A stretch of DNA of 64,000 nt from Roseobacter sp. GTDB taxonomy: Bacteria; Pseudomonadota; Alphaproteobacteria; Rhodobacterales; Rhodobacteraceae. Below are positions 32,266 through 49,429 of the stretch, in pieces. A program made the translations under genes and the position numbers. The DNA is taken from positions 1-64,000 of the forward strand of contig JADFAE010000005.1 in NCBI GenBank assembly GCA_015665415.1, read 5' to 3'. How positions within the stretch are numbered: the stretch's first letter is position 1; the number at the start of each line of letters is the position of its first letter. The notes below the pieces were generated by a model. It made no database searches, was not told the origin of the DNA, and saw only the letters and a list, made by a program, of their open reading frames with translations.

Positions 32266-33156
32266 CTAGCGCCCGCGTGTCCAGCGTTGCTGAGAGGGAA
32301 AGAGCGGAGATTTCACCGCCAGTGACACCAGGGTATAGGCGGCAAAGCCAAGCGGGTCGCGCGCCATCAGGCGCAGCAGCTGCGCTGGTGTCAGAGAGGG
32401 TTTGTCCTCGTTTTCCATCAGATCCGGGTAGCGGATTGCCAGCTCTGTGACCCCGGCATTCTGACGTCTCCGCACCCGGGTGAGATTGCGAAAACCCTCG
32501 ACCATGGGCCAGCTATACCCGGCAGGCAGCTTGATGCGTTCCTGCGGGGCAAAGGACAGCCGGGCAAAGAGGTCATCGGCAATGATGTCGGGCCAGAGCT
32601 GCCAGCGGGCCCGCCCGGCACGGTTCATCGCAAAGAGGCCAAAGCCGGGCACCCCCTGGCGCACAAAGGGCAATTGCACCCAGAACCGCCCATAGGCGCG
32701 GGTCAGGGCATTGCGGGCGGGCGCGACCAAGGGGCTGCCACTGGCATAGCGCGCCTCATCACAGTCCAGTGCCTTGGCGATCTGGCCGACCAGTGCGGGC
32801 TCGACCAGCACATCGGCATCCAGATAGATCCGCACCGCGCCTTGGGCCGCGGCATCGCCGGTATTCAGGGCCTTGAGCTTGCCGCCTTCTGGCAGCTCCA
32901 GAACCCGGAGCACCCAGCCCAGAGGCACAGGTTGGGCCTGGGCAATTTCGACCGTATTGTCCGTGCAGCCATTGGCCAGCACCAGAACTTCGCCACATTG
33001 GCCCTCTGGCAGCGGGTCCGAGGCAAAGAGGGCGGCAAGGCAGGCCTGGATATAGCCCGCTTCGTTATGGGCAGGGATCAGCACCGAGATTTGAGGGGCG
33101 GAGCCCTGCGAGCCGGAAACCTGGGAGGCTGAGGCTGGTGGGACTCGCACAGTCAT
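32266..33156 (-). CDS. GT2-family glycosyltransferase, last gene of the PKS-NRPS operon
   Basis: 296 residues, GT-A fold. It shows ISVLIPAHNEAGYIQACLAA, VLANGCTDNTVEIA, the metal-binding DxD-type YLDADVLVEP, and WPDIIADDLFARLSF as the acceptor-side acidic motif. The C-terminal hydrophobic stretch (PLGFAAYTLVSLAVKS) may touch the membrane. It overlaps the preceding gene by four bases. Probably transfers a sugar within the exopolysaccharide, or onto the PKS-NRPS product; not distinguishable from sequence. Confidence 0.85.
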   Translation of the reverse strand: MTVRVPPASASQVSGSQGSAPQISVLIPAHNEAGYIQACLAALFASDPLPEGQCGEVLVLANGCTDNTVEIAQAQPVPLGWVLRVLELPEGGKLKALNTGDAAAQGAVRIYLDADVLVEPALVGQIAKALDCDEARYASGSPLVAPARNALTRAYGRFWVQLPFVRQGVPGFGLFAMNRAGRARWQLWPDIIADDLFARLSFAPQERIKLPAGYSWPMVEGFRNLTRVRRRQNAGVTELAIRYPDLMENEDKPSLTPAQLLRLMARDPLGFAAYTLVSLAVKSPLFPSQQRWTRGR

Positions 33157-35675
33157 TTCACAGCCTCCAGCGCTGACCAGCGTGGATTTTCATCGCTCAA
33201 GCTGCGCAGAGCCCCCCAGCTGCCCCATTTTCCCGGGACCGCCACATCCGCATAGGCCCCAAACAGCTGGCCACCAAGATCCTGCCATCCGGCCAGAAGT
33301 CTGGCATAAAGTGCGCCCATCTCGGCGGTGTAGTTGAAATGGGTGAAAAAACCGGTCAGCACCGCATCCTCGGTGATCGGGCCGATGCCGACAACATGGC
33401 TGCCGCCCTCATACATGATGAGGTCAAGCCCTTGCTGATCTGCCACTGCCTTGTGATAGGGCAGCACCCGGCCCAACAGGTCCGACAGCGTATCGCTGGC
33501 ATCGCCGGTGACCAGACCATCCGTCAGCTCGGCGGCGGCTTGCGAACTGGCGACATCATATTGATGCTTGCTGACAAAGGCCTCGGCTGCGGCCCCGCTG
33601 AGCCCCCTGGCCTTGGCCGCGTCACGGGCCAGCGCCCGGCTGTCAGCAATCCAGGCCCGCAGAATCGGGGCGCGCTCTTTCAACCCCAGCACACCGCCGA
33701 AATAGCCAGTCACCGCATAGGCATCGAAATAGTAGCTGGGCGGCTGGCGATCGGCGGTCTCTGCGACCCAGAGCGGTGCGTTCAGGATCTGCTCTTCCAG
33801 ACCCAGCCAGCCGGTCTGGGTCGACAGCACCCGGATCAGCCGCTGGTCGGTGGTCTCGCCAAAGACCTGGCTCCAGATCTGCGAGACCTCGGCGGCGCGT
33901 CCGCCATAGAACTGCATCCAAAGATCGGCGCCGCCCCAGCGGGCCTGGGCCTGGGCATCGGCCCAGCGGGCCTGCTCAAACTGCCAGTTCCAGACCTCGT
34001 TGGAATATTCCACATAAGCCTTGAGATCAAAATCCAGCCCATCCTGAGTAAGCTTGGCGAAGTTTCGGACATAGCTGTCGTCGGCCATGTGGGGCATGTT
34101 GAACCAGGGATCGGCCCCCAGCTCATTGGCCAGGGCCAGCATCACCTCGGCGGGCACCCCTTTGCGGGCCCAGGAATAGTCGCTGATCCGCGGTCGATCC
34201 TCCCAGCCGATTTGGTGGGAATCATTGGTCTGCATCCAATCCATGAACCGCAGCACGTCAAACCCATCCAGAAGGTTGAGCCAGCGCGGATTGAAAACCT
34301 GCCCCTGGGCAAAGGCCGCAAGATCTTCTTCTTTCACCACGGTGATATTGCGCGGATAATCCCCATCGCCGCCAATGCGCTGCAGGCGGATTTCAACCGG
34401 TCCGGGGCCTGGGCTGAAGTCAAAAGACACCTCGCCCTTGCCGTAGCGCTGATTGCGTGCCCGGCCCGAGACTTCGACAATGCCCTGGCCTTCAAAGCGC
34501 AACAGGTAGCGCCCCGTGAGCGATCGTGCGCTCTCGGGCAGATCGGTGAGGATGACAGTGCCAATCGAGCCCAGCTCTGGCGGCAGGGCGGTGGGCCAGC
34601 CATCCGGATCGAGGTATCCGGCGCTGGCCAGATCCGCTTCGGTGACCCCGCCCCAACGCTGTGGCAGATGGCCAATCCAGGGGCGTGCGGTTTTGAAATG
34701 ATCAAGAAAGGGTGCCTGTGGGCTCCAGTCGGCCACCGGCATCAGGTTCATCGCAATCGGCTGCCTAGCGGGCGGTGTGGCGGCAACCTGTGCCGGCAGA
34801 TCCTCTGGCACGGGCCCGTTGAGGCGGGTGATTTCGGGGTCGGGTGGTGGCGCAATGAGATCCGCAGGCAATACGGCTGAGGCGGCGGCCTCACCCTGTG
34901 CTGCGGCCCAGGCGATCTGTTGCAGGCGCTTGGCCAGCGCAGCAGAAGGCGCGGGGTAGGCCTGCCCCCATTGGTCCTGCAGCTGATGCGGCAGGCCTTC
35001 GGGGCTTTGGCCGGTCAAAACCCCATATTGCAGCAGGCTGAGGAAATAAAAGCCGATTGCATTGGGGTGGATGTCATCTGCAAAGACATCGGAAATCCGG
35101 CGCAGCTCGGGCACGGTTCCGGCCAGGATTGCATCCTCCAGCCGGGCCATGGCCTGACCGGCAGGCAGCAAGGTGATGTCGCCGCCGGTGGCGTCAATGG
35201 CCTCATCCACCAGCGCCTGCCACCGGGGCAGATCCTGCTCCAGCCGGTCACGCCAGGGGGTGGCAGCGCCTTCGTCAAAGGGGATCTCGACGCCGGTGCC
35301 ACTGGCGAGACTGTGCCAGGTTTCCTGCAGGTAGAATTTCACCTCCGGGTTGGCGGCGCGGGCCAGTTCATAGAACTGGGTGACGGCCTGTTCGGAGTTG
35401 CTCCATTTCAGGTGATTGGCCAGTGGGATCGCCTCGGTGACGATCACCGCATCCGCCGGGTTTTGCAGTCGTTCGCGGGCATTGATGCCTTCGGCGCTGT
35501 CGGCGTGCTGCCAATTGTAGCTAAGCGGCGCGCCATTGATGATCTGTGCCTCCACCCGGATAGGATGCGCCGTGGGCTGCTCTGCCAGCAATTGCTGCAG
35601 CATTTGCGGATTGTCCGGTCCAAACAGCGAGTGCCCGACCATCACCACCGAGGTTATCAGCGTCTCCAAATTCAT
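33153..35675 (-). CDS. SGNH-hydrolase-like domain fused to a glycoside-hydrolase-like domain
   Basis: 840 residues. The first ~260 form an SGNH-like domain (VMVGHSLFGPDNP with Ser15; DDIHPNAIGFYF with Asp and His near 201-204; GLPHQL). It is clearly related to the whole of the neighbouring 314-residue protein. After a Pro-rich linker (about 270-310) comes a large domain with a jelly-roll-like stretch and a TIM-barrel-like region: LRFMDWMQTNDS, AYVEYSNEVWNWQ (N-E, likely acid/base, about 560) and LIMYEGGSH (likely nucleophile, about 755), as in clan GH-A. No signal peptide is visible, although such enzymes usually act outside the cytoplasm. Possible roles: acylating or trimming the glycan. Confidence 0.7.
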   Translation of the reverse strand: MNLETLITSVVMVGHSLFGPDNPQMLQQLLAEQPTAHPIRVEAQIINGAPLSYNWQHADSAEGINARERLQNPADAVIVTEAIPLANHLKWSNSEQAVTQFYELARAANPEVKFYLQETWHSLASGTGVEIPFDEGAATPWRDRLEQDLPRWQALVDEAIDATGGDITLLPAGQAMARLEDAILAGTVPELRRISDVFADDIHPNAIGFYFLSLLQYGVLTGQSPEGLPHQLQDQWGQAYPAPSAALAKRLQQIAWAAAQGEAAASAVLPADLIAPPPDPEITRLNGPVPEDLPAQVAATPPARQPIAMNLMPVADWSPQAPFLDHFKTARPWIGHLPQRWGGVTEADLASAGYLDPDGWPTALPPELGSIGTVILTDLPESARSLTGRYLLRFEGQGIVEVSGRARNQRYGKGEVSFDFSPGPGPVEIRLQRIGGDGDYPRNITVVKEEDLAAFAQGQVFNPRWLNLLDGFDVLRFMDWMQTNDSHQIGWEDRPRISDYSWARKGVPAEVMLALANELGADPWFNMPHMADDSYVRNFAKLTQDGLDFDLKAYVEYSNEVWNWQFEQARWADAQAQARWGGADLWMQFYGGRAAEVSQIWSQVFGETTDQRLIRVLSTQTGWLGLEEQILNAPLWVAETADRQPPSYYFDAYAVTGYFGGVLGLKERAPILRAWIADSRALARDAAKARGLSGAAAEAFVSKHQYDVASSQAAAELTDGLVTGDASDTLSDLLGRVLPYHKAVADQQGLDLIMYEGGSHVVGIGPITEDAVLTGFFTHFNYTAEMGALYARLLAGWQDLGGQLFGAYADVAVPGKWGSWGALRSLSDENPRWSALEAVK

Positions 35676-36616
35676 CCGCCGCCTCCTGCAGGGTTTGCAG
35701 CGGCCAATCCGCTGCGTGGCTGGGCCAGAACGGTCTCCCAGGTGATCCGTTGCACCTGTTGGGCCGCCTGCGCGGTAAAGCTGTCGGCCTTGCTGCCATC
35801 GGGTCGGCTGAGCTGGTGCGGCAGGCCAAGGGGCGCGCGTTGATAAAGCACCGCGTAATGGGTCAGCGCCACCACATAGGCCCCCAGATCATTGATATGG
35901 ATCGTGTCCAGTGCGCCTTGAGGGCTGCGGGTAAAGAGATCCTCGCGCACCGAAATCCCGTCTATCTTTCCCGCCTCTGCGGCCTCTGCCACGGCTGCCA
36001 TGACTTGCCCGGCGGGGATCAGATAGGCGGGGCGTTCAGGAGTGTTGCGACTGTCATCCCCGCTGAGCTTTTCCAGCCAGAGCGTCGGCAGATCCTGCGC
36101 AATACGCGCCTCCCAGCCTTTGGGGTCATTCAGGTGGTGCCAGGTTTCATAGAGATAGATGCGGGTATTCGGGTTACCCGCGCGGGCCAGATCGGCCCAG
36201 CGTTGGAAATATTCAGCCCCATCGAAATAGCGGATGGCGTCGCGCAACTCGACCATCTCCGTCAGCACCACTGCGTCATAGTCGCCTGACCCGATGCCCG
36301 CGCGCGCGTCTCGATAGGTGGGGGGCTGGTTCACGGTCTCAAAATCGAGGATCGCAAGATCCGGCTCCCAATGTTGTTTCAGATTGGTACCTGATCCCAG
36401 CTGGCTGTTCCAGCGATGCCCGGCGGGGGAGAGCTGCGCCAGCATATGCGGCATCACCGGCCCAACCAGAGAATGGCCCAGATGATAGACGCTCAGCCCC
36501 CCAGTTGGTGCAGACAACGGTGGCACATCAGGCAGCGGGGAGGGGCGCAGCCAGCGGGCCAGAGGCCAGAGCGCCAGCAGTGCCGGCAGGGCAAGAAATC
36601 CACGACGTGCCATCAT
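35672..36616 (-). CDS. SGNH-hydrolase-like protein with N-terminal signal/anchor
   Basis: 314 residues. MMARRGFLALPALLALWPLA is a twin-arginine-like or Sec signal or anchor. The SGNH-like core shows YHLGHSLVGPVMP (nucleophile Ser), LYETWHHLND, LIPAGQVMA and DTIHINDLGAYVVALTHY (Asp and His). Each block has a counterpart in the N-terminal domain of the next gene, so the two arose by duplication. It starts three bases after the PPTase stop and overlaps the next gene by four. Probably a periplasmic esterase or acyltransferase acting on the locus product. Confidence 0.72.
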   Translation of the reverse strand: MMARRGFLALPALLALWPLARWLRPSPLPDVPPLSAPTGGLSVYHLGHSLVGPVMPHMLAQLSPAGHRWNSQLGSGTNLKQHWEPDLAILDFETVNQPPTYRDARAGIGSGDYDAVVLTEMVELRDAIRYFDGAEYFQRWADLARAGNPNTRIYLYETWHHLNDPKGWEARIAQDLPTLWLEKLSGDDSRNTPERPAYLIPAGQVMAAVAEAAEAGKIDGISVREDLFTRSPQGALDTIHINDLGAYVVALTHYAVLYQRAPLGLPHQLSRPDGSKADSFTAQAAQQVQRITWETVLAQPRSGLAAANPAGGGG

Positions 36617-36619
36617 GTC

Positions 36620-37306
36620 TCAGCCTCGCAGCTCTGCGGTTGTCACGATGAGACCAGCGCCAATGGCAAAGCGTCCGGTGATGCAATCGTCACAATTAAA
36701 GGGCGGCTGATCGGCGCAGAACCGGGCGGAGAAGCTGCTGGTCTCCAGATCGAGGGTCAGCTCCATGCCGTCAAAGCCGTAGTAGCGCTGGCTGACAATG
36801 AACTGGCATTTATAAGCGGCTTCCTTTGCGGAAAACACCAATTTGGCCAGTTGGCCCGGGTTGTGCTGCTGGCGCAGCCAGGCCTGTTCTTGCTGCGAAC
36901 AGATTGCGGGCCAGAGATCATCGGCCAGCGGCTTGTCCTCTTCCACGTCGATGCCAAGACCCTGTATGGCACCGCGTTTGGCAACCACAGCCATGGCGCA
37001 GCTGCGGGTGTGGCTGATCGAGCCGACCAGTCTTTCGGGCCAGATCGGTGCGCGGTTCTCGCCCACCGGAATGGCAACCGGCTGTTGCCCCAAGGCCTGC
37101 ATCGCCTGATGGGCGGCGGCGCGACCGGCGGCAAATTCGCGACGGCGCTTGTCGACCGCATTGGGCGACAGGCAGGCGGCCTCTGCTGCAAAGGGGGCAG
37201 GTGGGTCGTCCAGCGGGTTCACCAGCGCCAGCGCAATATCGCTCTTCAAGAGCGGCCGTACCAGTGCCAGCCGCTCCATCTGTTGGGGTGCAATCTCTGC
37301 TGTCAT
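36620..37306 (-). CDS. 4'-phosphopantetheinyl transferase (EntD/Sfp type)
   Basis: 228 residues. Family motifs: RRREFAAGRAAAHQAM, VGSISHTRSCAMAV, GIDVEEDKP (metal-binding Asp and Glu) and LVFSAKEAAYKCQF. It transfers the phosphopantetheine arm from CoA to the serine of carrier domains, here expected to be the PCP of the NRPS and the ACP of the PKS in the same operon. It overlaps the NRPS gene by four bases. Its presence argues that the pathway is complete and dedicated. Confidence 0.92.
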   Translation of the reverse strand: MTAEIAPQQMERLALVRPLLKSDIALALVNPLDDPPAPFAAEAACLSPNAVDKRRREFAAGRAAAHQAMQALGQQPVAIPVGENRAPIWPERLVGSISHTRSCAMAVVAKRGAIQGLGIDVEEDKPLADDLWPAICSQQEQAWLRQQHNPGQLAKLVFSAKEAAYKCQFIVSQRYYGFDGMELTLDLETSSFSARFCADQPPFNCDDCITGRFAIGAGLIVTTAELRG

Positions 37307-40300
37307 CCTGTCCGTGCTTTGCGGTTTGCCCGCATCGCCCGCCGTTTCGACATGGTGTCGGATCTGGCGGCCTGCGAGGCCTCATCTTGGGCCGGATCAT
37401 CGGGCTTTGTGGCAGTGCCTGCAAGACCCTCGATGTGACTGGCCAATCCCGCCAGTGTCGGGAAGCGGAAGATATCGGTGATCGACAATTTGCTGACGTC
37501 CAGGGCCGCGCGGATGTCGCGGTGTGACTGCACCGCCAGCAGGGAATGTCCGCCCAGGGCAAAGAAATTATCCTGCGCGGTGATGCCTTCGACGCCGAGG
37601 ATGCGCGACCAGACAGCGGCAATTTCGGCCTGGACCCCGGCCCCGAGCGTCACCGTGGCTGCGGCCTGCGTTGCAGCCTTGTCGGTCCCCTGTTTCGGCT
37701 GCGGGGCCGGCAAAGCCTTGCGGTCAATCTTCTTGTTTGGGGTCAGTGGAAAGGCATCCAGTATCACGATATGGGCGGGCACCATGACCGCCGCGAGATG
37801 GGTGCTCAGCGCATCCCTGAGGCTCTCCGGATCGACCTCGGCCGCAATTTCCCGAGTGATATAGCCCACCAATTGCACATCGGCCCCCAGCGGGCGTTCC
37901 ACAACCACGGCCCCGGTGACATGGGGCTGGGCCGCCAACGCCGCTTCGATCTCTCCCAGCTCGATACGTTGCCCACGAATCTTGACCTGATGATCGGTGC
38001 GACCAAGGAAGCTGAGCTGACCATCGGCATTCAGACGGACCAGATCGCCGGTGCGGTACAGCTTGCCGTCGGCAATGGGATTGGGGACAAAGCGCTCTTG
38101 CGTCAAATCTGGCCGTTGCCAATAGCCCGCCGTGACGCCCTGGCCGCCGATATACAGCTCACCCGCGGCGCCCATTGGCACTGGCCGTTGGTCCGCGTCC
38201 AGCACATAAACCTGCGTATTGGCCAGCGGGGTGCCAATACTGGCCACGCCGGCCGAAGCGCCCGCAAGGGTGGCGCTGGTGGACCAGATCGTGGTTTCGG
38301 TGGGACCATACATGTTGTGCAGCTGCGCAGGGGTTGCCTCGCGCAGGCTCCCGACCAGATCACCGGCCAGGGCTTCGCCGCCAACCAGGAGATGCTGCAA
38401 ACGCCCCATGACCATGCGGGCCTCATCATCCTGCACCAGCATGCGTGCCATTGAGGGCGTGCACTGCATATGGCTGACCCCATGGCGCATCATCTGCGCC
38501 GACAGCGAGAAATCATCCGCCGCCTGTTCCTGTGGGCTATTGGTCCTGGCCAGCACTTCGGCCAGCGGCTTCAGCCCTTCCAGCACCACCTCTGGGGCGA
38601 TGCCATAGTCGATCAGGCAGGCGATCTCATCGACGCCAATCCGCTTTAGCTGTTCGGTGCGGGCCAGGGCGTCCTCGATGGTGCCAAACAGGCCGGACTC
38701 TTCAAAATAGCGTTCAAAGGCAAATTCCAGGATGGCTTCCAGCTCCTCGCCGCTCAGTGCATCCAGCTGCATGTCAAAGGCGTTGTTGACCCCCTTGGGG
38801 CGCTTGAAAGCCGGGAAGGCCCAGGCATATTGCTTGATCAGCCCCGCCGCCGAGCGCAGGTAATCCTTCATCGGTTCGCGGGCGATGCGGCGCGAGTCTT
38901 CGCGGGTTTCGGCCAGATAGCTGTGCAGCATCAGGGTGACCTTGAAGTCGGCCGGGTCATGACCCGCGGCGCGCAGGGCATCGTGATAGATGCGGATCTT
39001 GCCGCCGACCTCTTCGATGCTTTGGCCCAGCAGATGGGTCAGCACATTGGCACCGATCTCCCCGGCTTCGCGCCAGGTGTTCGGGTTGCCTGCCGTTGTC
39101 ACCCAGAGGGGCAGCTCTTTTGATACCGGGCGCGGTTGGGTGATGACGGCATGGCGGGTTCCATCCTTGCGGGGAAACTCCACCGCCTCACCGCGCCACA
39201 GGCTGCGCAGGGTCTCGATGGCCTCATACATCGCGGGTTTGTTGGCAGGGGGCGTGTTTTCCGGGCGCAGCACAAAATCATCCGGCTGCCAGCCAGCGGC
39301 AATGCCGATACCGGCCCGGCCATTGGTGAGATTGTCGATCACCGACCATTCTTCGGCAATGCGGGCAGGATGGTGCAAAGGCGCGACGCAGGAGCCCGCC
39401 CGCACGCTGAGATTATGGGTCACGGCGGCCACTGCTGCCCCGGTGACAGAGGGGTTCGGGTAGGGGCCGCCAAAGGCATGGAAGTGTCGTTCTGGTGTCC
39501 AGACCGCGTTGAACCCATTGGCGTCGGCGAATTTCGCGCCTTCCAGCAGCAGGTGGTATTTGCGCGGGCCGGGACCATCGTCATTGCCCCAGTAGAACAG
39601 GTTGAAATCCATCCGCCGGTCCGAGATGGCGATGGAGCCATTGGACAGCTCCAGGCGGCTTTCATCGCTTGACAGCACCAGTTTGAAGCCGCGCGACAGG
39701 GTCCAGAACAGCTCTAGCACCGAAATGTCAAAGGACAGTGAGGTGACCGCCAGCCAGGCGTCGCCCACTTTGTGGGGAATGCGCGCATCCATGGCGGCAA
39801 AGAAATTGGCCACATTATTCTGGCGCACCATGACGCCCTTTGGGGTGCCGGTCGAGCCTGAGGTATAGATCAGATAGGCCAGATCCGTGCCAGTGGCGGT
39901 GCTGGCAATATTTGCCGGTTGGGTGGTGGGGGCAGCACTGCTGTCGACGGTCACCACCTGTGCCGAGGTTGCGGGCAAGTCGCCGCGCAGCGCATCTTGG
40001 GTCAGGACAACCCCGGCCTGACTGTCCGTCAGATAATGGGCGATGCGATCCGCCGGATAGGCGGGATCGAGCGGCACATAGGCACCGCCGGCCTTGAGCA
40101 CAGCCAAGGTGGCCACCAGCAGATCAGCAGAGCGTTTGACATAGACCCCGACATGGGACCCGGGCTTCACCCCGATCTGTTGCAGCTTGGCCGCCAGCGC
40201 ATTGGCGCGCCCGTTGAGGGCGGCGTAGCTGTAGCTTTCACCCTCAAAGACCAGGGCAATGGCCTCGGGCGTGCGGGCGACCTGGGCCTCGAATGCGGCC

Positions 40301-41904
40301 TGAATGGTGGGGTCGGCAGGCAGATCGCTGGCGGTTTGGTTCCAGTCTTGCAGCATCAGCTTGCTCTCTGCCTCGGGCAGGACTGGCAGATCCGACAGCG
40401 CGCTGTCGCCCAGGGTGGCGATGACGCCCAGCACAAGCTCCAGCCGCGCGGCGAGCAGCTCCGCGACCTTTGGCTCAAGCTGGGCGTCATCCACATGCAG
40501 CGCCAAAGCGCCATCTACCAGCGACACGGTGGCAGCGCAGCCTGGCAGGGCTGCATCCCGGTCCACTGAGATCCCAATCCCCGGCTGTGGCTGTGGCTCC
40601 AATTCCGGGGCGCGCGCCACAAGGTCCAGGGCAAATCCGCCGTGTTGGCGGGCCTTTTGGAGCTCGGCCTTTACCTGATCCGTCAAGGCGTTAACAGTGA
40701 TATTTCGCCTTGCCTGCAGCGGAATCCACTCCGAAACCAAATGCGCGGCCTCTGCTGCAACCGGAGTGGCAAGGGCCAGGTCGCCGCTCTCCTCTCCCGT
40801 GCTGAGCAGGGCCCAGGCGAGGATCGCGGTGATGATCTGGTCTTGTGTCAGGCCCGCGGGCAGAGCGAGCTCTTGGCGGCTTTGCCCCGTGCTGCCGGTA
40901 GGGCGCGCCAGCGGCACGGCAATGGGCTGCATCCTGGCAAGCGCCTTGCGCCAGTGGCTTTCTCCGCTTTGGGAATTGGCCAGCGCTGCAGTCAGTGCTG
41001 CGGTCTCGGCGGTGTCGCGGCGGGGCAGCTGGTCGCCCGCAGAGAAAAGCCCGGGCAGGTCCAGCGGTTGGCCAGCAAGTGAGGTGATCTGTTCCAGCGC
41101 AATGGCCCCATCAGAGGTAGCAATTGTCAGCATGGCCCCAGTGACAGAGAGCACGGCTCCGGCCTCGCCGCTGCCTGTGCCTGTGGCAGGGCTGGCCTTG
41201 CCCACCCGCAGCACCTGGTTCGACAGTCGCAATTTGGCGCTGCCCAGCGGGTTCCAGTAGGGGCCAAAATCCAGCGCGCGCACCAGACGGCACAGGTCGG
41301 CGGTTGGCTGCGTAAAATCCAGAATTCCGCCTGCCTCGGGGCGGTGATCCTTGCCGAAATAGCTGCGCTGGCTCAGATCCTGCGGTTGGCGTTGCAAGGT
41401 GCCGCTGCTCAGCTGCTCCAGCACCTCGCCAAAACTGTCCATGGCGGCGGCATAACATTTTGAGTTGAGCGAAAAACCGGTCTCATCCTCGGCAATGTCG
41501 AACAGGCGCTGGGCGAGGATGTCGCCCTCGTCGATACCGCCCTCCATCATGTGCCAGGTGATGCCGTGCTGGGCCTCGCCAGCGATCAGCGCCCAGTTGG
41601 GCGTGTTGAGCCCGGCATAGCGCGGCAGGGGGCCGTCGTGAAAGTTCACCGCGCCCTGGGTGGCCAGCGCCAGAGTGGCGTCAGGGATCACGCGCAGGTT
41701 GGCGATCGACAACAGCCAGTCAAACCCCGCTGAGATCTCGCCGGGAGAGTCGCATGTGACCAGCCCCCTGGCCGCAGCCCAGGCGCGGATGTCTGCATCG
41801 GTTGAGACCACGGCAGCAATCTGGTGGCCTTTGGCCAGCACCGCTTCGGCGCAGCCGATCAACAGGGATTCATTGCCGATGACGACACAGGAAAATGGGC
41901 TCAT
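37303..41904 (-). CDS. NRPS: formyltransferase - partial C - A (with luciferase-like monooxygenase insert) - PCP
   Basis: 1533 residues. Residues 1-250 are a methionyl-tRNA-formyltransferase-like domain with NFHDGPLPRYAG (Asn, His) and GGIDEGDIL (Asp). About 290-500 resemble only the C-terminal half of a condensation domain; no HHxxxDG is visible. The adenylation domain begins near 535 (YLIYTSGSTGTPKGVM, LSFDISVLELFW with the Asp that binds an alpha-amino group). At about 763-1120 a flavin-dependent luciferase-like monooxygenase (MDFNLFYWGNDDG, NAVWTPERHFHAFGG) interrupts it before NMYGPTETTIWS, LYRTGDLVRL, KIRGQRIELGEIEAAL and PNKKIDRKAL. The PCP serine is near 1453 (LGGHSLLAV). There is no thioesterase. 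It should load, formylate and perhaps oxidise one amino acid. Confidence 0.9.
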   Translation of the reverse strand: MSPFSCVVIGNESLLIGCAEAVLAKGHQIAAVVSTDADIRAWAAARGLVTCDSPGEISAGFDWLLSIANLRVIPDATLALATQGAVNFHDGPLPRYAGLNTPNWALIAGEAQHGITWHMMEGGIDEGDILAQRLFDIAEDETGFSLNSKCYAAAMDSFGEVLEQLSSGTLQRQPQDLSQRSYFGKDHRPEAGGILDFTQPTADLCRLVRALDFGPYWNPLGSAKLRLSNQVLRVGKASPATGTGSGEAGAVLSVTGAMLTIATSDGAIALEQITSLAGQPLDLPGLFSAGDQLPRRDTAETAALTAALANSQSGESHWRKALARMQPIAVPLARPTGSTGQSRQELALPAGLTQDQIITAILAWALLSTGEESGDLALATPVAAEAAHLVSEWIPLQARRNITVNALTDQVKAELQKARQHGGFALDLVARAPELEPQPQPGIGISVDRDAALPGCAATVSLVDGALALHVDDAQLEPKVAELLAARLELVLGVIATLGDSALSDLPVLPEAESKLMLQDWNQTASDLPADPTIQAAFEAQVARTPEAIALVFEGESYSYAALNGRANALAAKLQQIGVKPGSHVGVYVKRSADLLVATLAVLKAGGAYVPLDPAYPADRIAHYLTDSQAGVVLTQDALRGDLPATSAQVVTVDSSAAPTTQPANIASTATGTDLAYLIYTSGSTGTPKGVMVRQNNVANFFAAMDARIPHKVGDAWLAVTSLSFDISVLELFWTLSRGFKLVLSSDESRLELSNGSIAISDRRMDFNLFYWGNDDGPGPRKYHLLLEGAKFADANGFNAVWTPERHFHAFGGPYPNPSVTGAAVAAVTHNLSVRAGSCVAPLHHPARIAEEWSVIDNLTNGRAGIGIAAGWQPDDFVLRPENTPPANKPAMYEAIETLRSLWRGEAVEFPRKDGTRHAVITQPRPVSKELPLWVTTAGNPNTWREAGEIGANVLTHLLGQSIEEVGGKIRIYHDALRAAGHDPADFKVTLMLHSYLAETREDSRRIAREPMKDYLRSAAGLIKQYAWAFPAFKRPKGVNNAFDMQLDALSGEELEAILEFAFERYFEESGLFGTIEDALARTEQLKRIGVDEIACLIDYGIAPEVVLEGLKPLAEVLARTNSPQEQAADDFSLSAQMMRHGVSHMQCTPSMARMLVQDDEARMVMGRLQHLLVGGEALAGDLVGSLREATPAQLHNMYGPTETTIWSTSATLAGASAGVASIGTPLANTQVYVLDADQRPVPMGAAGELYIGGQGVTAGYWQRPDLTQERFVPNPIADGKLYRTGDLVRLNADGQLSFLGRTDHQVKIRGQRIELGEIEAALAAQPHVTGAVVVERPLGADVQLVGYITREIAAEVDPESLRDALSTHLAAVMVPAHIVILDAFPLTPNKKIDRKALPAPQPKQGTDKAATQAAATVTLGAGVQAEIAAVWSRILGVEGITAQDNFFALGGHSLLAVQSHRDIRAALDVSKLSITDIFRFPTLAGLASHIEGLAGTATKPDDPAQDEASQAARSDTMSKRRAMRANRKARTG

Positions 41905-42920
41905 TTAAGATCCTCCGGAAACGGGGAGTGAAGGCGCGTTTCACTTTTGGATGAAGAGGGCCGGGCGCTGGGCCGCAGCGCCTGCGCGATCAGATCGCGC
42001 AGGAAATGGTTGGGATCCGCCTGCGGCTTGCCCTGGATCAGACGGCGCAACCCATAAAGGCTGCACCCGGCAACCCGTGCAGCTGTGGCCAGCGCGGCAT
42101 AGACAGACCCATGGGATTTGCGAAAGTAATGGCTGCGGGACTGGAACCAATAGGCAGGCGTGCGCTGCCATTGCTGCATGCCCGTCGAGGCAGAGCCGAC
42201 ATGGGCAACCCGGCTGTCGGGCACATAATGGGTGCGCCATCCGGCCTGGGCGGCGCGGCGGCACAGGTCTGTTTCTTCGAAATAGAGAAAGAAGCCTTCG
42301 TCAAAGCCGCCGATCTCGTCAATGACGGGTCGGCGGATCATCAGGCTGGCCCCGGCGGTCCAATCCACCTGGGTTTCGGTCTGGGGCATGTCCATTGCCA
42401 CCACCCAGGGGGCCAGCAGCCGGGTGAAGACACCGGTCCGCGCCGCCATTTCGAACTCACCGGCGATGGAGGGAAAGCGAAACGCCGTGCGATGCGGGGT
42501 GCCATCGGTGCCATAGACATATGAGCCCGCCAGTCCGGCACCGGGATGATCCGCCAGGAAATCACGCAGCCTGCGCATGGTACTGCCTTGTACAAAGGCA
42601 TCAGAGTTGAGCAGGTAATAATAGTCCGGCGCGGTGCCATCCGAAAGCCCGGCCGCAAAGCCGATGTTCATGCCCGCGCCAAAGCCGCCGTTGACCATCG
42701 AACGGATCAGCCGGAACTTGGCGCTGTCTTGCCAGCCGCGCGCCTTGACGCCCTCCTGCAAGGCCTCCCAGGAGCCATCAGCAGAGCCGTTTTCAATGAC
42801 CAGAACCTCGCCGTTGAGATCCTCCATCTCGGCCAGGGCAGCCGCGGCCGCCTTTAGCGTCATCTCAGGCGTGCGGTAGTTCAGAATGATGCATAAAATG
42901 CTGTTGGCTGCCATGATCAC
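41901..42920 (-). CDS. GT2-family (rhamnosyltransferase-like) glycosyltransferase
   Basis: 339 residues of the WbbL/rhamnosyltransferase type. It shows LCIILNYRTPEMTLKAA, VLVIENGSADGSWEAL, MVNGGFGAGMNIGFAAG, YYLLNSDAFV (DxD-type motif), TAGASLMIRRPVIDEIGGFD and YFEETDLCRRAAQAGW. The C-terminus has a short basic/hydrophobic region. It is placed between the PKS and NRPS genes, overlapping both (one and four bases), so it is probably part of the same pathway, adding a deoxyhexose to the aminoacyl-polyketide or joining it to a glycan. Confidence 0.88.
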   Translation of the reverse strand: MIMAANSILCIILNYRTPEMTLKAAAAALAEMEDLNGEVLVIENGSADGSWEALQEGVKARGWQDSAKFRLIRSMVNGGFGAGMNIGFAAGLSDGTAPDYYYLLNSDAFVQGSTMRRLRDFLADHPGAGLAGSYVYGTDGTPHRTAFRFPSIAGEFEMAARTGVFTRLLAPWVVAMDMPQTETQVDWTAGASLMIRRPVIDEIGGFDEGFFLYFEETDLCRRAAQAGWRTHYVPDSRVAHVGSASTGMQQWQRTPAYWFQSRSHYFRKSHGSVYAALATAARVAGCSLYGLRRLIQGKPQADPNHFLRDLIAQALRPSARPSSSKSETRLHSPFPEDLK

Positions 42921-45900
42921 TACTCCGCCGCGCGTTTGAACGTGGTCTGGTCATCCCCGGCCTCAGGATCCGCAGGCGCGGGGCTGATGTCCGGCGTCAG
43001 ATGCGGTTTTAGAGCCGCAGCCATGGTGCTGACATTGGGCACCAAGACCATGCTGTCATGATCGCCAGGCACTTCGACCACTGTCAGGCTGGGGGCCCAT
43101 TTCGTCCAGTCATTGTCGGCAAAAACATATTCGCGCTCCTGGCTCACCCAATTGCCGCGTGACACCTGCCAATGGTGATCCAGGGGCGGGCGCAGCAGCG
43201 TCAGTGGGCCGGTCCAGGGCCGCAACGGGTAGTGTTCGACGGCGTGGCGAAAGGCCAGTTCGATCTTGCGATTGTTGAAGGCAGGGATCTGTCCGGTCTC
43301 AACCGGGGCCTGGCGGCGCTTGCTGATCTCCCAGAGGATGCGGTTTTTGCCCCATTCCAACAGATATCCGGCCCCCTTGCGGCGCAGCTCCTGCAGTTTG
43401 ATCAGGGCCTTGTCGGTGCGCGACAGGGCCGGGCGCACCGGCAGCGGCGTATCAAGTAGGATCAGGGCTGCCGTCTCTTCACCAAGGTCGTGCAATTGTT
43501 GCGCCATCTCATAGGCGGTGATGCCGCCGCCAGAGAAGCCGCCAAGAAGATAAGGGCCTTTGGGCTGGATCTGTTTCACCTCTGCCAGATAGTCGCGGGC
43601 GGCCTCGGCAATGTTGTTGTGCGGATCATCGCTGCCGATCAGCCCGCGTGCCTGCAGGCCGTAGACAGGGCGGTCAGTGCCCAGCTCCTGGGCCAGATGA
43701 CGCAGGTTCAGTACATTGCCAAACATGCCTGCAACCACAAAGAAGGGGGTCGCATCTGCATCTGTGCCGGGGTGCAGCTGCACCAGATGGGTATGGGGCG
43801 CGGCGGAGGGCTGATCCTTGCGGCCCCCCTTACCCTCCTCTGCGGCGTCGGCCAATCCCGCGCCGCCATGCTGGACCACCAGGGCGGCCAGTTTGGCAAC
43901 GCTGGGGGCCTCGAACAGCACCGAGAGCGGGAATTCCAAATCAAAATGCCGCTTGATCTGGGCAAACAGGCGCACGGCGATCAGGGAATGGCCGCCAAGA
44001 TCAAAGAAGCTGTCGGCGGTCCCGACCTGACTGACACCAAGCAGGCTTTGGAACAGGTCGGCCAGGCGTTCTTCGACGGGGCCAGAGGGGGCAATATAAT
44101 CGGTGTCCAGCTCGGGACGCTCGAAGGTCTGACCTTCCGGAGCATCACCATTGGCGCTGCGCTGGGAAGTCTGGGTGATCAGCGCGGGCAGATCCAGCGA
44201 AGAGACCACCACCTGCGGCCGCCCCGTTGCCAGCGCCCGGATCATGGCCTCGGGGCCTTCGCTGCTGCGGATACCATTGGCCAGATTGAGCTGCAGGCGA
44301 CGTTCCTCCTCCGAGAGCGGCTGCGGCGTGCTGCGCACGGCCAGCCCCAGGGCCTCGGCAGTAGCATCGGCCTGTTCCTGGGGGCCGGATGCGTCAAAGC
44401 CCTGGGCCAGACGGGTCATCTGAAAGCCGGTGATCTCGACCAGGACGGTGCCGCTGGGATCGGTAAGGGTGATATCAAAGCTGGCGCTGTCGCTGCCAAC
44501 GGACTCGCATAGCCGCATGTGGCTGTGGATTTCGGAGGTCAGAGGCGCATGGATGCGCAGGCTGCGATAGCCTAGTGGCACCCAGAGGGCAGAGCCATCA
44601 TAGCCGGGCACCAGCGAGATGGCCCAACCGGTGGCCAGATCCATCAGACCTGGGTGCAGCAGGCAGTCATCCTCGGCTGCGGCTGCGGGCAAGCACAACC
44701 GCGCCAGGCCTTCTTCCGCGCCCAGGGCGACCTCTTGCAACACCCGCCAGCGTGGTCCAAAATTCAGATGGGCCTCTTGCGGGCTGTGCAAGACATGGCC
44801 CTCAGTGGCGCATTGATGCTCCGGGCAGCGGGCGCGGATTGCGGTAAGCTCCAAGGGCGTTGGGGCTGTGGCATCGGGCAGGAGCCTCACCTGAGCCTCG
44901 CAATTCTGGGCATAGCCACCGGATGCTAACGCACTGTGCAGGGTCACATCATAGCCGCTGTCCTGAGCCTGCAGGTGCAGGATCATCTCGCGGGGGCTGT
45001 CGTCAGCCACCACCAGCGGGCGAAGAAAGTAGAGGCCGTTGATCTCAAAGGGGGCGTCAAGGTCCAGCGCGGCCAGCGCCTCGGCGATCCATTCGACATA
45101 GCCGGTGCCGGGCACCAGGGCGGTGCCGGATTTGGTGCGGTGCTCGTCCAGGAACCAGCTGTTGCGTGCCTCCAATTTGGCGGCAAAGATCGGAGTGCCA
45201 AAGCTGTCAAACCCGGCCTCTTGCAACAGCGGTTGGGCACAGGCCGTGCGGGGGCTGGGGGCGGTGCCGCCCTGGCGTGCGGCCATGGCTTCGGCGGCCA
45301 TGCCGGTCTCCGCCCAGATGCCCCAATCCAGCGCCAGCACCCGGGTTTTGCCGCCCTGACGATGGGCGGCCCAGGCGTTGAGATATTCATTGGCGGCGAC
45401 ATAATCGATCTGCCCCGCTGGGCGTGTCACCGTGGAGGAAGAGGAAAACAGCAGCATCAGATCCAGGCTGCCATCCGGGAACAGCTCCTCCAGCACCCGC
45501 AACCCGGTGAGTTTGGGGGCCAGAACCTTTGCCATTTGGGCCTCGGTCTTGCCTAGGATCGGGCCATCGTCGATCACACCTGCGCCGTGAATGACACCGT
45601 TCAGCGGGCCAAATCTGTCTTGGCTGTCATCTATGGCCGCCCGCATGTCTGCGCTGTTGCAGACATCTGCCGCAAGCGGCAGGACGGCACCTTTTCCGAT
45701 TGCCTCGAGCTCCTGCACTGCACGAATGCGCTGGGCGATACGATTGGCGGGACTATGGGTTGCCAGATAGCGCTCCCAGGTGGCGCGAGGCGGCAGGCCT
45801 TCGCGCGAGACCAGCGTGATCTTGGCTCCGTAGTGGCGCAACAGATGCGCTGCCGTGGCCAAGCCGATGCCGCCATAGCCGCCGGTGATCAGATAGCGGC

Positions 45901-48900
45901 CACCGGGTTTGAATGCGGGTAGATCTGGTGCTTGGCTTGGAGCCCCTTCGGTCAGGGGCTGCTTGCGCCAGCTCTTCTCAAAGCGCTTTTCGCCACGCCA
46001 GGCGGCGGAGGCATTTGAGGGCTCGGCCAAAAGTTCCTCAAGCAGGCGCGCGGTCAGGTCCGGGGTTTGCGCGCCGCGCAGGGCAGCGATGAGGCCCGGC
46101 GCCGAAGGCAATTCAATATCCACCGTGGTGCAGGTGAGATGCGGGAATTCCCGCGGCATAACCCCGGCAGGTCCGGCAATCAGCGCTTTTTCCGGGTCGG
46201 GCAGAGGCTCTGCTGCGACCTGCGCCGCCCCAGTGGTAAAGATGGTCAGATGAACCGGCCTGTCCAGCTCCAGCGCGCCCAATTCCTGCGCCAAAGCCGT
46301 CAGGGCGTAAAAGCCCATCTCGAGGTTGCGATCAAAGAAGGAGGAGCCAGGGCGGAAACTCTCATCTTGGGTCACCAGCCAGAAATGGCCGATGCGATCC
46401 GGCAGGGCATCGTTTTCAGCCAGATCGGCCAGCAGGGCGCCATAGCCAAAGCGCCCCTGTTCGGGGGGCAGGATGTAGCTGCCATTGCCCAGATTGGCAA
46501 AGGTATCGCCCGCATGCACCAGGCTAACGCGATGACCGGCGGCGCGCAGCTGAGCCGCGGCTTTTTGGGCCAGGCCGCTGTCGTCGGCAAAGAACAACCA
46601 GGTTTGCGGCGTCTCGCCGAGATCGGTCTCGAGGTCGAGGGCGCAGTCTGCCAGCCGGGGGCGCCAGGCCGGGCGGTAGCCCCAGTCGCGGATGTCCTCA
46701 TGGCGCCGGGGCAGCGGCACGTCTTCCTGCTGTTGTACCGTGCCCGGCGCGATGAAGTAGCGGCTTCTTTGGAAGATGTAGCCGGGCAGCGGCAGGCGAT
46801 TGCGCCTGGCTTCGCCCCAGATCTGATCCCAATCGGCCTCAACCCCACAGGCCCAGAGACGGCCAATGACACCAAAGAAATAGGCATCATCCATCATCTC
46901 CTGATCCGGGTGACGCAAAGAACTGAGCACCTGGCTGGGTTGCACATCTGGCGACATCTGCGCCAGGGCCGACAGCGCCTTGCCGGGGCCGACCTCCAGG
47001 AACACCCGGCCTGGGGTGGCTGCGAGGGTCTCGATGCAGGTCGCAAACATTACGGTGTTGCGCAGCTGGCCCACCCAGTAGTCGGGGCTGGTGGCCTCTG
47101 CGGCGCTGAGGGGCTGACCGGAGCGGTTGGAGATCACCGGGATCTGCGGCGGCGACAGGGTGAGATCGGCCAGAAAGGCACGGTAATCCGCAAGGATTCC
47201 GCCCAGCATGCGCGAATGCGCGGCGATGTCGATCTGAATGCGCTGGTGGTCAATCTCCTTGGCCGTCAGCTCAGCCGAGAGCCTGTCCAGCGCGGCCTGC
47301 GGGCCGGAGACAGCCGTCAGGCTGGGGCCGTTGACGCTGGCAATATCGAGATCCGTGCCGACCAGCGCCTCAACTTCTGCCAGGGGCAGGGCGATCGACA
47401 ACATGCCGCCCGCCGGAACCGTATCAAACAGACGTCCGCGCAGCAGTACCAGATCGATGCAATCCTCAAAGGACAGCACACCGGCGAGACAGGCGGCGGT
47501 GTTCTCGCCCATGGAATGGCCAACCAGGGCCGCCGGGCGAATGCCCCAGCTGATCCAGAGCTGTGCCAGCGCATATTCCACCATCATGATCAGCGGCAAT
47601 TGCACCGAGGGTTGCTGCAGCCGGGCATTGGCTGCAGCTTCATTTTCTTCTTCGGGCAGCCAGAGGGCGCGCAGGTCATAGTCGAGCTGGGGCTGCAGAT
47701 GGTCCAGCCCCCGGTCCATCCAGTCGGCAAAGACCGGCTCTGTCTCATAGAGATCCCGCGCCATACCGGCATATTGCGCGCCACCGCCGGGAAAAGAGAA
47801 AACCACCTCTGGCGCGTCGCCTAGCTGGTCATGGCTAAAGACCTGACGTGGATCGCCTGCGCGCAGCAGCGCTGCGGCCTCAGCGGTGGTTTCCGCCACC
47901 AGCGTGCGGCGCTTGGCAAAACCACGTCGGCCCTGTTTCAGGGTAAAGGCGACATCTGCCAGATCGGCCTGCGGGTGGGCCTCGAGATAGTCGGCGAGGG
48001 CTGCGCTATTGGCCTCGAGCGCGGATTTCGACTGGCCTGAGAGGCAGAGCACATGGAAAGGGAAATCGCTGTCTTGCGACGGGGCACGGGCGGGGGCTTC
48101 CTCCAGGATGGCATGGGCATTGGTACCGCCAACCCCCAGCGCATTGATCGCAGCGCGGCGCGGCCCCTGATGCGAGACCCAAGGGCTGAGCGCATCGTTG
48201 ACCCGGAAGGGGGAGGCCTCAAAATCTATCGCCGGGTTTGGGGCCTCGTAGCTGAGCGAGGGCGGGATTTCGCGATGCGCCAGCCCGAGGGAGGTCTTGA
48301 CCAATCCCGCAATGCCGGCGGCGGTGTCGAGATGGCCGATATTGGTTTTGACCGACCCGATGCGGCAATAACCGGTGGCGTCGGTGTCTTCGCGGTAGGC
48401 CTCGGTGAGGGCGGAGACCTCGATCGGGTCGCCCAGATAGGTGCCGGTGCCGTGGCATTCGACATAGTCGATGCTTTCGGCGCTGACATCGGCCGCGCTC
48501 AGCGCCTGACGAATGGCCGCGCTCTGCCCGCCCACGGAAGGCGCCAGATAGCCGGCCTTGTCGGCACCGTCATTGTTGATGGCGGAGCCCTTGATCACCG
48601 CCCAGATGTGATCGCCATCGGCCTGCGCGTCCTCAAGACGGCGCAGCGCAACAGCGCCTGCGCCAGAGCCAAAAACGGTGCCCTGGGCGCGGTGGTCAAA
48701 GGCGTGGCAATGGCCGTCGGGCGACAGGATCTCGTTTTCCTTGAACAGATAGCCCTGCCCCTGAGGCATATCGATGGTGACACCGCCGGCCAGGGCCATG
48801 CCACATTCGCCCGCGCGCAGCGCCTTGCAGGCGTAGTGCACCGCCACCAGCGAGGTCGAACAGGCGGTTTGAATATTGACCGAGGGACCTTTGAGATCAA

Positions 48901-49429
48901 AGACATGGCTGACCCGCGTGGTCAGGAAGTCCTTGTCGTTGCCGGTATGGCGCAACAGGAACATGCCGACCTCATCCACCAGGCCGGGGTTGGAGCAGAT
49001 GTTGAAATAGAAATAGCTGCCCATGCCACAGCCGGCATAGACGCCGATGGGCTCTAACAGGCTTTCGGGGGGATGGGCGGCATTCTCCATTGCGCCCCAG
49101 GCGACCTCTAGGAACTTACGGTGCTGCGGGTCGAGAATGGCAGCTTCTTTGGGGCTGAAGCCAAAGAACTCTGCGTCAAATTCGTCAAATCCCTCCAGCA
49201 GGGCCGCATGAGTCACGTAGTTGGGATCGGCCAGAGTGGTGTCTGACACGCCAGCGGCGCGCAGCTGTTCGGTGTCCAGAGGCACGATGGATTCGATGCC
49301 CGCGCGCAGGTTTTGCCAGTAGGTCTCTATCCCATCGGCGCCGGGAACATTGACCGACATGCCGACAATGGCGATATCCCCGGAATATTGCGGGGTGGAT
49401 TGATCTGCAGTCTTTGCCACTAAAAACAC
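42920..49429 (-). CDS. Single-module type I polyketide synthase: KS-AT-KR-DH-ACP-TE
   Basis: 2169 residues. KS: TACSTSLVAVHYAC (Cys near 187), VECHGTGTYLGDP, KTNIGHLDTAAG. AT: ALVGHSMGENTAA (Ser near 638); its specificity segment reads IAAHS, compatible with malonyl-CoA but not decisive. KR: ITGGYGGIGLATA near 1185, then LLFSSSSTV and QIDYVAANEYLNA (Ser, Tyr, Asn all present). DH-like: DEHRTKSGTALVPGTGY near 1428 with a later LMDLATGW. ACP: LGGHSLIAV near 1811. TE: GGFSGGGITAYEM near 1965 and PGDHDSMV near 2125. The reductive domains follow an unusual order, KR before DH. Start is GTG at 49429 or 49420. One extension with reduction or dehydration and hydrolytic or transfer release is predicted. 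Confidence 0.92.
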   Translation of the reverse strand: MFLVAKTADQSTPQYSGDIAIVGMSVNVPGADGIETYWQNLRAGIESIVPLDTEQLRAAGVSDTTLADPNYVTHAALLEGFDEFDAEFFGFSPKEAAILDPQHRKFLEVAWGAMENAAHPPESLLEPIGVYAGCGMGSYFYFNICSNPGLVDEVGMFLLRHTGNDKDFLTTRVSHVFDLKGPSVNIQTACSTSLVAVHYACKALRAGECGMALAGGVTIDMPQGQGYLFKENEILSPDGHCHAFDHRAQGTVFGSGAGAVALRRLEDAQADGDHIWAVIKGSAINNDGADKAGYLAPSVGGQSAAIRQALSAADVSAESIDYVECHGTGTYLGDPIEVSALTEAYREDTDATGYCRIGSVKTNIGHLDTAAGIAGLVKTSLGLAHREIPPSLSYEAPNPAIDFEASPFRVNDALSPWVSHQGPRRAAINALGVGGTNAHAILEEAPARAPSQDSDFPFHVLCLSGQSKSALEANSAALADYLEAHPQADLADVAFTLKQGRRGFAKRRTLVAETTAEAAALLRAGDPRQVFSHDQLGDAPEVVFSFPGGGAQYAGMARDLYETEPVFADWMDRGLDHLQPQLDYDLRALWLPEEENEAAANARLQQPSVQLPLIMMVEYALAQLWISWGIRPAALVGHSMGENTAACLAGVLSFEDCIDLVLLRGRLFDTVPAGGMLSIALPLAEVEALVGTDLDIASVNGPSLTAVSGPQAALDRLSAELTAKEIDHQRIQIDIAAHSRMLGGILADYRAFLADLTLSPPQIPVISNRSGQPLSAAEATSPDYWVGQLRNTVMFATCIETLAATPGRVFLEVGPGKALSALAQMSPDVQPSQVLSSLRHPDQEMMDDAYFFGVIGRLWACGVEADWDQIWGEARRNRLPLPGYIFQRSRYFIAPGTVQQQEDVPLPRRHEDIRDWGYRPAWRPRLADCALDLETDLGETPQTWLFFADDSGLAQKAAAQLRAAGHRVSLVHAGDTFANLGNGSYILPPEQGRFGYGALLADLAENDALPDRIGHFWLVTQDESFRPGSSFFDRNLEMGFYALTALAQELGALELDRPVHLTIFTTGAAQVAAEPLPDPEKALIAGPAGVMPREFPHLTCTTVDIELPSAPGLIAALRGAQTPDLTARLLEELLAEPSNASAAWRGEKRFEKSWRKQPLTEGAPSQAPDLPAFKPGGRYLITGGYGGIGLATAAHLLRHYGAKITLVSREGLPPRATWERYLATHSPANRIAQRIRAVQELEAIGKGAVLPLAADVCNSADMRAAIDDSQDRFGPLNGVIHGAGVIDDGPILGKTEAQMAKVLAPKLTGLRVLEELFPDGSLDLMLLFSSSSTVTRPAGQIDYVAANEYLNAWAAHRQGGKTRVLALDWGIWAETGMAAEAMAARQGGTAPSPRTACAQPLLQEAGFDSFGTPIFAAKLEARNSWFLDEHRTKSGTALVPGTGYVEWIAEALAALDLDAPFEINGLYFLRPLVVADDSPREMILHLQAQDSGYDVTLHSALASGGYAQNCEAQVRLLPDATAPTPLELTAIRARCPEHQCATEGHVLHSPQEAHLNFGPRWRVLQEVALGAEEGLARLCLPAAAAEDDCLLHPGLMDLATGWAISLVPGYDGSALWVPLGYRSLRIHAPLTSEIHSHMRLCESVGSDSASFDITLTDPSGTVLVEITGFQMTRLAQGFDASGPQEQADATAEALGLAVRSTPQPLSEEERRLQLNLANGIRSSEGPEAMIRALATGRPQVVVSSLDLPALITQTSQRSANGDAPEGQTFERPELDTDYIAPSGPVEERLADLFQSLLGVSQVGTADSFFDLGGHSLIAVRLFAQIKRHFDLEFPLSVLFEAPSVAKLAALVVQHGGAGLADAAEEGKGGRKDQPSAAPHTHLVQLHPGTDADATPFFVVAGMFGNVLNLRHLAQELGTDRPVYGLQARGLIGSDDPHNNIAEAARDYLAEVKQIQPKGPYLLGGFSGGGITAYEMAQQLHDLGEETAALILLDTPLPVRPALSRTDKALIKLQELRRKGAGYLLEWGKNRILWEISKRRQAPVETGQIPAFNNRKIELAFRHAVEHYPLRPWTGPLTLLRPPLDHHWQVSRGNWVSQEREYVFADNDWTKWAPSLTVVEVPGDHDSMVLVPNVSTMAAALKPHLTPDISPAPADPEAGDDQTTFKRAAE

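Follow-up and report, generated by a model that had tools for sequence, protein, structure and literature searches.

The 64,000-nucleotide stretch of Roseobacter sp. DNA analyzed here (contig JADFAE010000005.1, positions 1-64,000; hereafter the window) carries on its minus strand, between positions 32266 and 49429, a run of seven closely packed genes that includes a polyketide synthase (PKS) and a nonribosomal peptide synthetase (NRPS), and is flanked on both sides by glycan genes. From the highest to the lowest coordinate, the run is made up by a type I PKS of 2169 amino acids (42920-49429), a family 2 glycosyltransferase (GT2; 41901-42920), an NRPS of 1533 amino acids (37303-41904), a 4'-phosphopantetheinyl transferase (PPTase; 36620-37306) matching PF17837 and PF01648, an SGNH-like protein of 314 amino acids (35672-36616), a protein of 840 amino acids featuring an SGNH-like and a putative clan GH-A-like hydrolase domain (SGNH-GH; 33153-35675), and a second GT2 (32266-33156). 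The first four form a conserved core. All seven reading frames listed in the first-pass annotation as overlapping are present, and the joints are as it described them: a one-base overlap between PKS and GT2 (42920), four-base overlaps between GT2 and NRPS (41901-41904), NRPS and PPTase (37303-37306), SGNH and SGNH-GH (35672-35675), and SGNH-GH and GT2 (33153-33156), and a single three-base gap between PPTase and SGNH (36617-36619). PKS, NRPS, PPTase and both GT2 proteins match their Pfam families above cut-off. The two SGNH assignments hold in part, GHSL and DxxH motifs being recognizable by eye in both proteins, with Pfam support weak in one and missing in the other.

Genes around the run were likewise described as glycan genes. 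Above cut-off are the matches of a priming sugar-phosphate transferase (25468-26394, plus strand; PF02397, E 1.3e-58), a Wzx-type flippase (29232-30614, minus strand; PF13440, E 9.8e-44, and PF01943) and a WecG/TagA-type glycosyltransferase (51390-52178, plus strand; PF03808), along with a GT4 glycosyltransferase (30831-32066, plus strand) and a GT2 (52383-53396, minus strand). The Wzz-like chain-length protein (27815-29194, plus strand; PF02706) and the Wzy-like polymerase (49692-51218, minus strand; PF04932) fall below it. A conserved ParA/BY-kinase-like ATPase (26547-27758, plus strand) matches PF10609 just below cut-off; in a Parasedimentitalea locus a CpsD/CapB kinase is annotated next to sugar transferase and DUF874 genes. 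Two minus strand reading frames (26421-27692 and 51327-52025) were dropped as genes, because the overlapping plus strand frames are the conserved ones. No small-molecule exporter or regulator, and no outer-membrane exporter, was recognized among the 15 block proteins scanned, Wzx being the only exporter-type protein.

Recurrence of the block in relatives

Gene neighbourhoods were monitored in 30 genera, over 40 kb each, picked from the best NRPS matches and the longest contigs and not at random. Gene orders were derived from a simple reading frame caller and BLAST; the caller misses some genes (L196 was misread), and the counts quoted for core genes are those of tblastn. The 40-kb stretches do not reach window genes below about 21.9 kb, zero counts there being uninformative. 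The 15 called window genes in 25468-53396 recur in 14-30 of the 30 neighbourhoods; as a control, 8 called genes lying outside this block but still reached by the stretches were counted, and these recur in 0-7. The unit recurring in relatives is the interval 25468-53396, delimited by the priming transferase and the outermost GT2, Wzx, Wzy-like and Wzz-like genes included. PKS genes were found in 30 neighbourhoods, GT2 in 29, PPTase in 27, Wzz-like genes in 29, Wzx and Wzy in 24 each, WecG in 28, the priming transferase in 22. GT2 lies between PKS and NRPS in 28 genera, G144 and G285 being the exceptions, and at least two of five Wzx/Wzy-pathway genes are found in 29 of the 30 neighbourhoods. 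The PKS-NRPS genes had been viewed as inserted in an exopolysaccharide locus. Insertion was rejected, because the glycan genes of both sides recur together with PKS and NRPS.

A further sample consisted of 71 regions, up to 20 kb long, from 70 genera. Of the 108 NRPS-bearing genomes other than that of the window, 99 are represented in the two samples, and the remaining nine carry fragmentary or divergent copies. PKS is present in 67 of the 71 regions, the four misses being short cut contigs, and GT2 resides between PKS and NRPS in 61 of the 67. Of six pathway genes, 61 of the 71 regions hold one or more, and 51 hold two or more. The first-pass annotation named as refuting its view a finding that homologous operons always lie away from glycan genes; this is not the case, at least two of five pathway genes being present in 29/30 neighbourhoods and at least one of six in 61/71 regions. 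A third set comprises the best 80 of at least 579 confirmed relatives in species genomes. All 80 have PKS, and GT2 between PKS and NRPS, and 75 have PPTase. They include three Hydrogenophaga metagenome-assembled genomes (MAGs), one Burkholderiales MAG and one Verrucomicrobiales MAG. PKS-NRPS genes adjoin glycan genes also in Aminobacter, Shinella, Hydrogenophaga (WecG, priming transferase and GT4 by Pfam in one locus) and the Verrucomicrobiales MAG (GT4 and a sugar-type nucleotidyltransferase by Pfam).

Sixteen plasmid records hold most of the NRPS. Carriers belong to Parasedimentitalea, Ruegeria, Aminobacter, Paracoccus, Shinella, Rhizobium, Neorhizobium, Methylobacterium and Aliiroseovarius, and polysaccharide clusters were found in five of six plasmid regions examined (Parasedimentitalea, Aminobacter, Paracoccus, Shinella and Ruegeria).

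NRPS, Wzy and SGNH-GH were searched in 295 genera (E <= 1e-100 for NRPS, full-length or partial; E <= 1e-10 for the other two), and found in 109, 112 and 113 genera, respectively. The recurrence of the NRPS is beyond chance. NRPS and Wzy are both present in 101 genera and both missing in 175, NRPS alone being found in 8 and Wzy alone in 11; the corresponding figures for NRPS and SGNH-GH are 104, 177, 5 and 9. Wzy matches in genera lacking the NRPS all score below 317 bits, while 93 NRPS-bearing genera exceed 340 bits (hand count). NRPS and Wzy are no more than 40 kb apart in 74 of the 101 genera (median 12.4 kb). In six they reside on one contig at a distance of 52-419 kb, and the association thus persists where linkage is lost. 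In a class-wide sample of 289 genomes, the NRPS (E <= 1e-200) was found in five genomes, of which one is that of the window, three belong to the same family and one does not. PKS was found in nine, at least 90% of its length being covered only in the same five NRPS-bearing genomes.

Three further loci were noted. In Paracoccus marcusii (L127 653-4531) the polysaccharide cluster also encodes, at a distance of about 15 kb from the NRPS, a second adenylation-domain protein, whose gene directly adjoins a WecB/TagA gene. In Aliiroseovarius sp. M344 (L129 19992-33731) an NRPS at 42% identity, followed by a 9-kb NRPS/PKS, lies between nitrous-oxide-reductase genes and an exosortase. Relatives also have a second locus type (L088 10002-17411), in which the surroundings of PKS-NRPS additionally include an AT3-SGNH O-acyltransferase, a GMC oxidoreductase and NDP-sugar-type oxidoreductases. 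In the window, TamB and TamA genes (54630-60064) adjoin the block; matches to them were found in 7 of the 30 neighbourhoods.

Domains of the synthases and of the SGNH proteins

Domain scan and alignment give the PKS order KS-AT-KR-DH-ACP-TE, in which KR precedes DH. Across 31 aligned sequences, one from the window and the others from 30 genera, the Cys and His residues of KS, the Ser and His of AT, the Tyr and Asn of KR, the His and Asp of DH, the Ser of ACP, and the Ser, Asp and His of TE are all invariant. We take these residues to have the usual catalytic roles. The usual DH motif is HxxxGxxxxP; in the window it reads H-x4-G-x4-P, one residue longer, its His and Pro being conserved in 31/31 sequences.

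The NRPS consists of an N-terminal formyltransferase, a stretch free of detected domains, an adenylation domain into which a luciferase-like monooxygenase is inserted, and a carrier domain. Formyltransferase and monooxygenase are additions to the first-pass annotation. The formyltransferase (residues 68-283, N and C parts; 41056-41703) features the N/H/D motif, and its presence with adenylation and carrier domains in one chain makes up a complete F-A-PCP set. The monooxygenase (residues 767-1117; 38554-39606) belongs to TIGR04020, the MupA/Atu3671 family, with a score of 464 bits against a cut-off of 244. It is inserted after the sequence FDISVLELF, presumably motif A4 of the adenylation domain. 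PuwE (6ket) is the sole monooxygenase among the best 60 of 102 PDB matches. The carrier (PP-binding) domain spans 37432-37626. Among 31 aligned NRPS sequences there is no exception to the carrier Ser or to the Asn of the formyltransferase, and only G126 lacks the His and Asp of the latter, both present in the other 30. Catalytic motifs are accordingly intact in 31/31 PKS and 30/31 NRPS sequences.

The best solved matches of the formyltransferase domain are ArnA, methionyl-tRNA formyltransferase and GDP-4-amino-4,6-dideoxymannose formyltransferase (best 3e-21). The match to the LgrA protein of linear gramicidin is far weaker (about 3e-4). No domain was detected between residues ~290 and 530, and residues ~290-469 were not placed by Pfam or PDB sequence searches. 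A full condensation domain is unsupported, because only the end of this stretch aligns with the ends of condensation domains of solved synthetases. The adenylation pocket code is DILQLGMIWK, which we take to be of the glycine type (compare DILQLGLIWK). Its Gly is kept in 31/31 sequences; position five is occupied by L, M, F or other residues. Glycine is most likely the amino acid loaded, judging from this code. The best PDB match of the adenylation domain is LgrA module 2, presumably glycine-activating, in which the pocket positions read differently.

The 314-residue SGNH protein has an N-terminal signal or anchor by eye, and resembles the N-terminal domain of its 840-residue neighbour. No SGNH family was matched by Pfam, and the PDB sequence search gave no placement either. 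The 840-residue protein matches PF13472 with an E value of 0.0017, below cut-off. In 28/28 sequences of its family Ser16, His203, Asn559-Glu560 and Glu756 are invariant; the second domain is presumably clan GH-A-like. In some relatives the SGNH and hydrolase domains are separate proteins, and signal peptides are recognizable by eye in relatives of the SGNH and hydrolase proteins.

Proposed product and alternatives

The first-pass annotation envisaged an assembly line that loads one amino acid, extends it once and is linked to a surface glycan, and both domain content and neighbourhoods support it. We propose that a short acyl group derived from N-formylglycine becomes a non-sugar part of the repeat of a polymer made by a Wzx/Wzy locus having a PKS-NRPS of its own, a reading to which we assign a probability of about one half. 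From gene set, domain order, intact motifs, co-occurrence and proximity we infer the amino acid, the chemistry and the glycan attachment, as follows. PPTase would arm both carrier domains, and the NRPS would load a single amino acid, most likely glycine. The formyltransferase domain would cap the amine, a step expected to prevent lactam closure, and the embedded monooxygenase may hydroxylate the loaded unit. The PKS would add one C2 unit, to be reduced by KR and dehydrated by DH, giving an acyl of the 4-formamido-but-2-enoyl type, or its C4-hydroxylated variant if the monooxygenase acts on the glycine alpha-carbon. TE and the dedicated GT2 proteins would transfer the acyl to one of the sugars in the lipid-linked repeat; this repeat would be flipped by Wzx and polymerized by Wzy. 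SGNH and hydrolase proteins would eventually trim or deacylate the chain in the periplasm. The joining of acyl and sugar could be carried out by TE, by a GT2 or by an unlinked enzyme. An acyl-decorated polymer is favoured because of the co-occurrence of NRPS and Wzy, the dedicated GT2 between PKS and NRPS, the exported SGNH and hydrolase proteins, and the lack of a recognized small-molecule exporter among the 15 block proteins.

Several data weigh against this proposal. No enzyme for joining the product to a sugar was identified, the chemistry being that implied by the domains, and no signal peptide is evident by eye in the window's 840-residue protein, unlike in its relatives. Fisher values for co-occurrence are extreme, but ignore relatedness among genera, which are not independent. 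NRPS and Wzy are on different contigs in 21 of the 101 genera, possibly due to assembly breaks. Pairwise identities of glycan genes correlate only moderately with those of the NRPS (r values of 0.38-0.69), compared with 0.91 for those of the PKS, figures calculated with no control for the organism. GT2 is missing between PKS and NRPS in 6 of 67 PKS-bearing regions. Ten of the 71 regions have none of the six pathway genes, four being cut contigs and six full 20-kb regions; three of the latter were scanned with Pfam, one of which (L227) carries a polysaccharide deacetylase as well as a Wzy-like gene. The NRPS of G144 (46% identity) and of the Aliiroseovarius M344 plasmid (42%) belong to a different cluster, with no GT2 between PKS and NRPS. 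G144 lacks GT2 and has fewer than two of the five pathway genes, and the M344 NRPS resides among nitrous-oxide-reductase genes, glycosyltransferases being found only at the far edge. In L262 (G185) and L264 (G217) the PKS-NRPS lies beside glutamine synthetase and other non-glycan genes. L264 retains an SGNH-GH match; Wzy is still present on another contig in G185, and is missing in G217.

G185 and G217, in which PKS-NRPS genes lie away from glycan genes, also fit the view that the product is a small molecule secreted in free form, be it a signal, a metal binder or a defence compound, possibly glycosylated by the embedded GT2, and that the assembly line shares only regulation and habitat with the polysaccharide genes. 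This is a serious rival, which we hold unlikely on balance. The terminal TE can release a free acid, and the published passages speak of a secondary-metabolite cluster (PMC4337385) and suggest chemical defence (PMC5014874); the tight co-occurrence with one Wzy family, even at a separation of 52-419 kb, and the failure to recognize, in the scan of 15 block proteins, any that would serve export of a small molecule, regulation or resistance argue against it. The likeness of the formyltransferase domain to ArnA, methionyl-tRNA formyltransferase and the dideoxymannose enzyme, far closer than to LgrA, raises the possibility that the domain acts on an amino sugar rather than on the carrier-bound amino acid, the NRPS formylating a glycan precursor. 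This idea is compatible with the decorated polymer, and is rather improbable given the fusion of the domain to the start of an assembly line, as F domains at this position, such as that of LgrA, are known to formylate the loaded amino acid.

No partner of PKS and NRPS is more constant than GT2 (80/80 among the best 80 of at least 579 loci), as would be expected if the PKS-NRPS product were the aglycone of a lipid-linked or short glycolipid, extended by glycosyltransferases. In known systems priming transferases start chains on undecaprenyl phosphate; a dedicated one is present in 22 of the 30 neighbourhoods, and, unless the PKS acts iteratively, a four-carbon acyl is not long enough to serve as a membrane anchor, leaving the glycolipid a small chance only. 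Least probable is that PKS-NRPS and polysaccharide genes spread jointly in a variable island with no functional tie. Some copies are plasmid-borne, and the glycan genes around the core vary between lineages, but the same Wzy family accompanies the NRPS even when far apart, and motifs are conserved over 31 PKS sequences.

The travelling of an orphan PKS-NRPS of marine roseobacters with one polysaccharide machinery suggests that it makes a chemical decoration of the polymer. With slightly less than even odds, this would be an enoyl derived from N-formylglycine, or a reactive aldehyde if the glycine carbon is hydroxylated and the adduct collapses, which could bind metals or thiols, or cross-link chains. 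The tie to one pathway indicates where the product may be sought, in the repeat unit of the purified polymer, a Wzy mutant being the matched control. If the proposal is correct, the decoration would occur in one family whose members are mostly marine, in about a third of its genera sampled here. Modular assembly lines would then have a part in building structural surface polymers besides making small molecules for secretion, and many marine bacteria would bear in their coats a chemical group of which, to our knowledge, there is no description.

Related systems and published record

The window shares with Wzx/Wzy-dependent loci a priming transferase, a flippase and several glycosyltransferase genes, together with genes that are polymerase-like and chain-length-like by matches below cut-off. 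Unlike the usual loci of this type, it hosts a complete PKS-NRPS with PPTase. As in LgrA, formyltransferase, adenylation and carrier domains are found in one NRPS chain; in contrast to LgrA, the F domain is closer to ArnA and methionyl-tRNA formyltransferase, the adenylation domain is interrupted by a monooxygenase, and a PKS module is encoded nearby. The adenylation domain of MtaG, of the myxothiazol pathway, is similarly interrupted by a luciferase-like monooxygenase, and the window has a TIGR04020 domain after A4 in a domain likely to activate glycine. Unlike MtaG, the window NRPS is an initiation module with an F domain, and no amide release step is expected. The Dlt system, which D-alanylates teichoic acids, employs adenylation and carrier proteins to supply a surface polymer with a small acyl group. 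The window system is alike in outline, with different enzymes and carrier and an additional PKS extension. Membership in the Dlt family was rejected, the DltA model scoring 258 bits against a cut-off of 560, and the scan of the block proteins revealing neither DltB nor DltD.

The first-pass annotation knew of no description of the glycan-linked gene set. This holds for the link to a glycan, as far as the matches listed in the open PMC literature go, and not for the core. In its passages on the subject, PMC4337385 reports a four-gene cluster of NRPS, PKS, glycosyltransferase and PPTase in 28 of 57 roseobacter genomes, with a product uncharacterized and worth elucidating, and PMC5014874 the same cluster, with product likewise uncharacterized, in Leisingera JC1; both cite Martens et al. 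2007 for a conserved roseobacter PKS/NRPS cluster. The window carries the same four genes, adjacent to each other. The passages on the cluster make no mention of SGNH or hydrolase genes, formyltransferase or monooxygenase domain, and the string 'polysaccharide' does not occur in the texts of the two papers. Leisingera strains JC1 (L136) and ANG-Vp (L137), both treated in print, hold window genes at 60-79% identity. The former is represented by a 9.9-kb contig reaching from PKS to SGNH-GH only; the latter has additionally WecG, Wzy, GT4 and Wzx. No paper tying a PKS-NRPS cluster to a polysaccharide or to a Wzx/Wzy pathway was found among the matches listed in the open PMC literature, subscription papers being outside its scope. 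In the parts bearing on the subject, PMC8739492 reviews TIGR04020 monooxygenases in PKS and NRPS lines, and genome papers on Pseudoruegeria M32A2M and Tritonibacter AK171 report PKS/NRPS clusters with no assigned product. PMC4062626 lists PKS Inhi_1972 and NRPS Inhi_1974 in Phaeobacter inhibens T5, its polysaccharide passages concerning other genes. Numbering places the two one gene apart, consistent with the order PKS-GT2-NRPS of the window.

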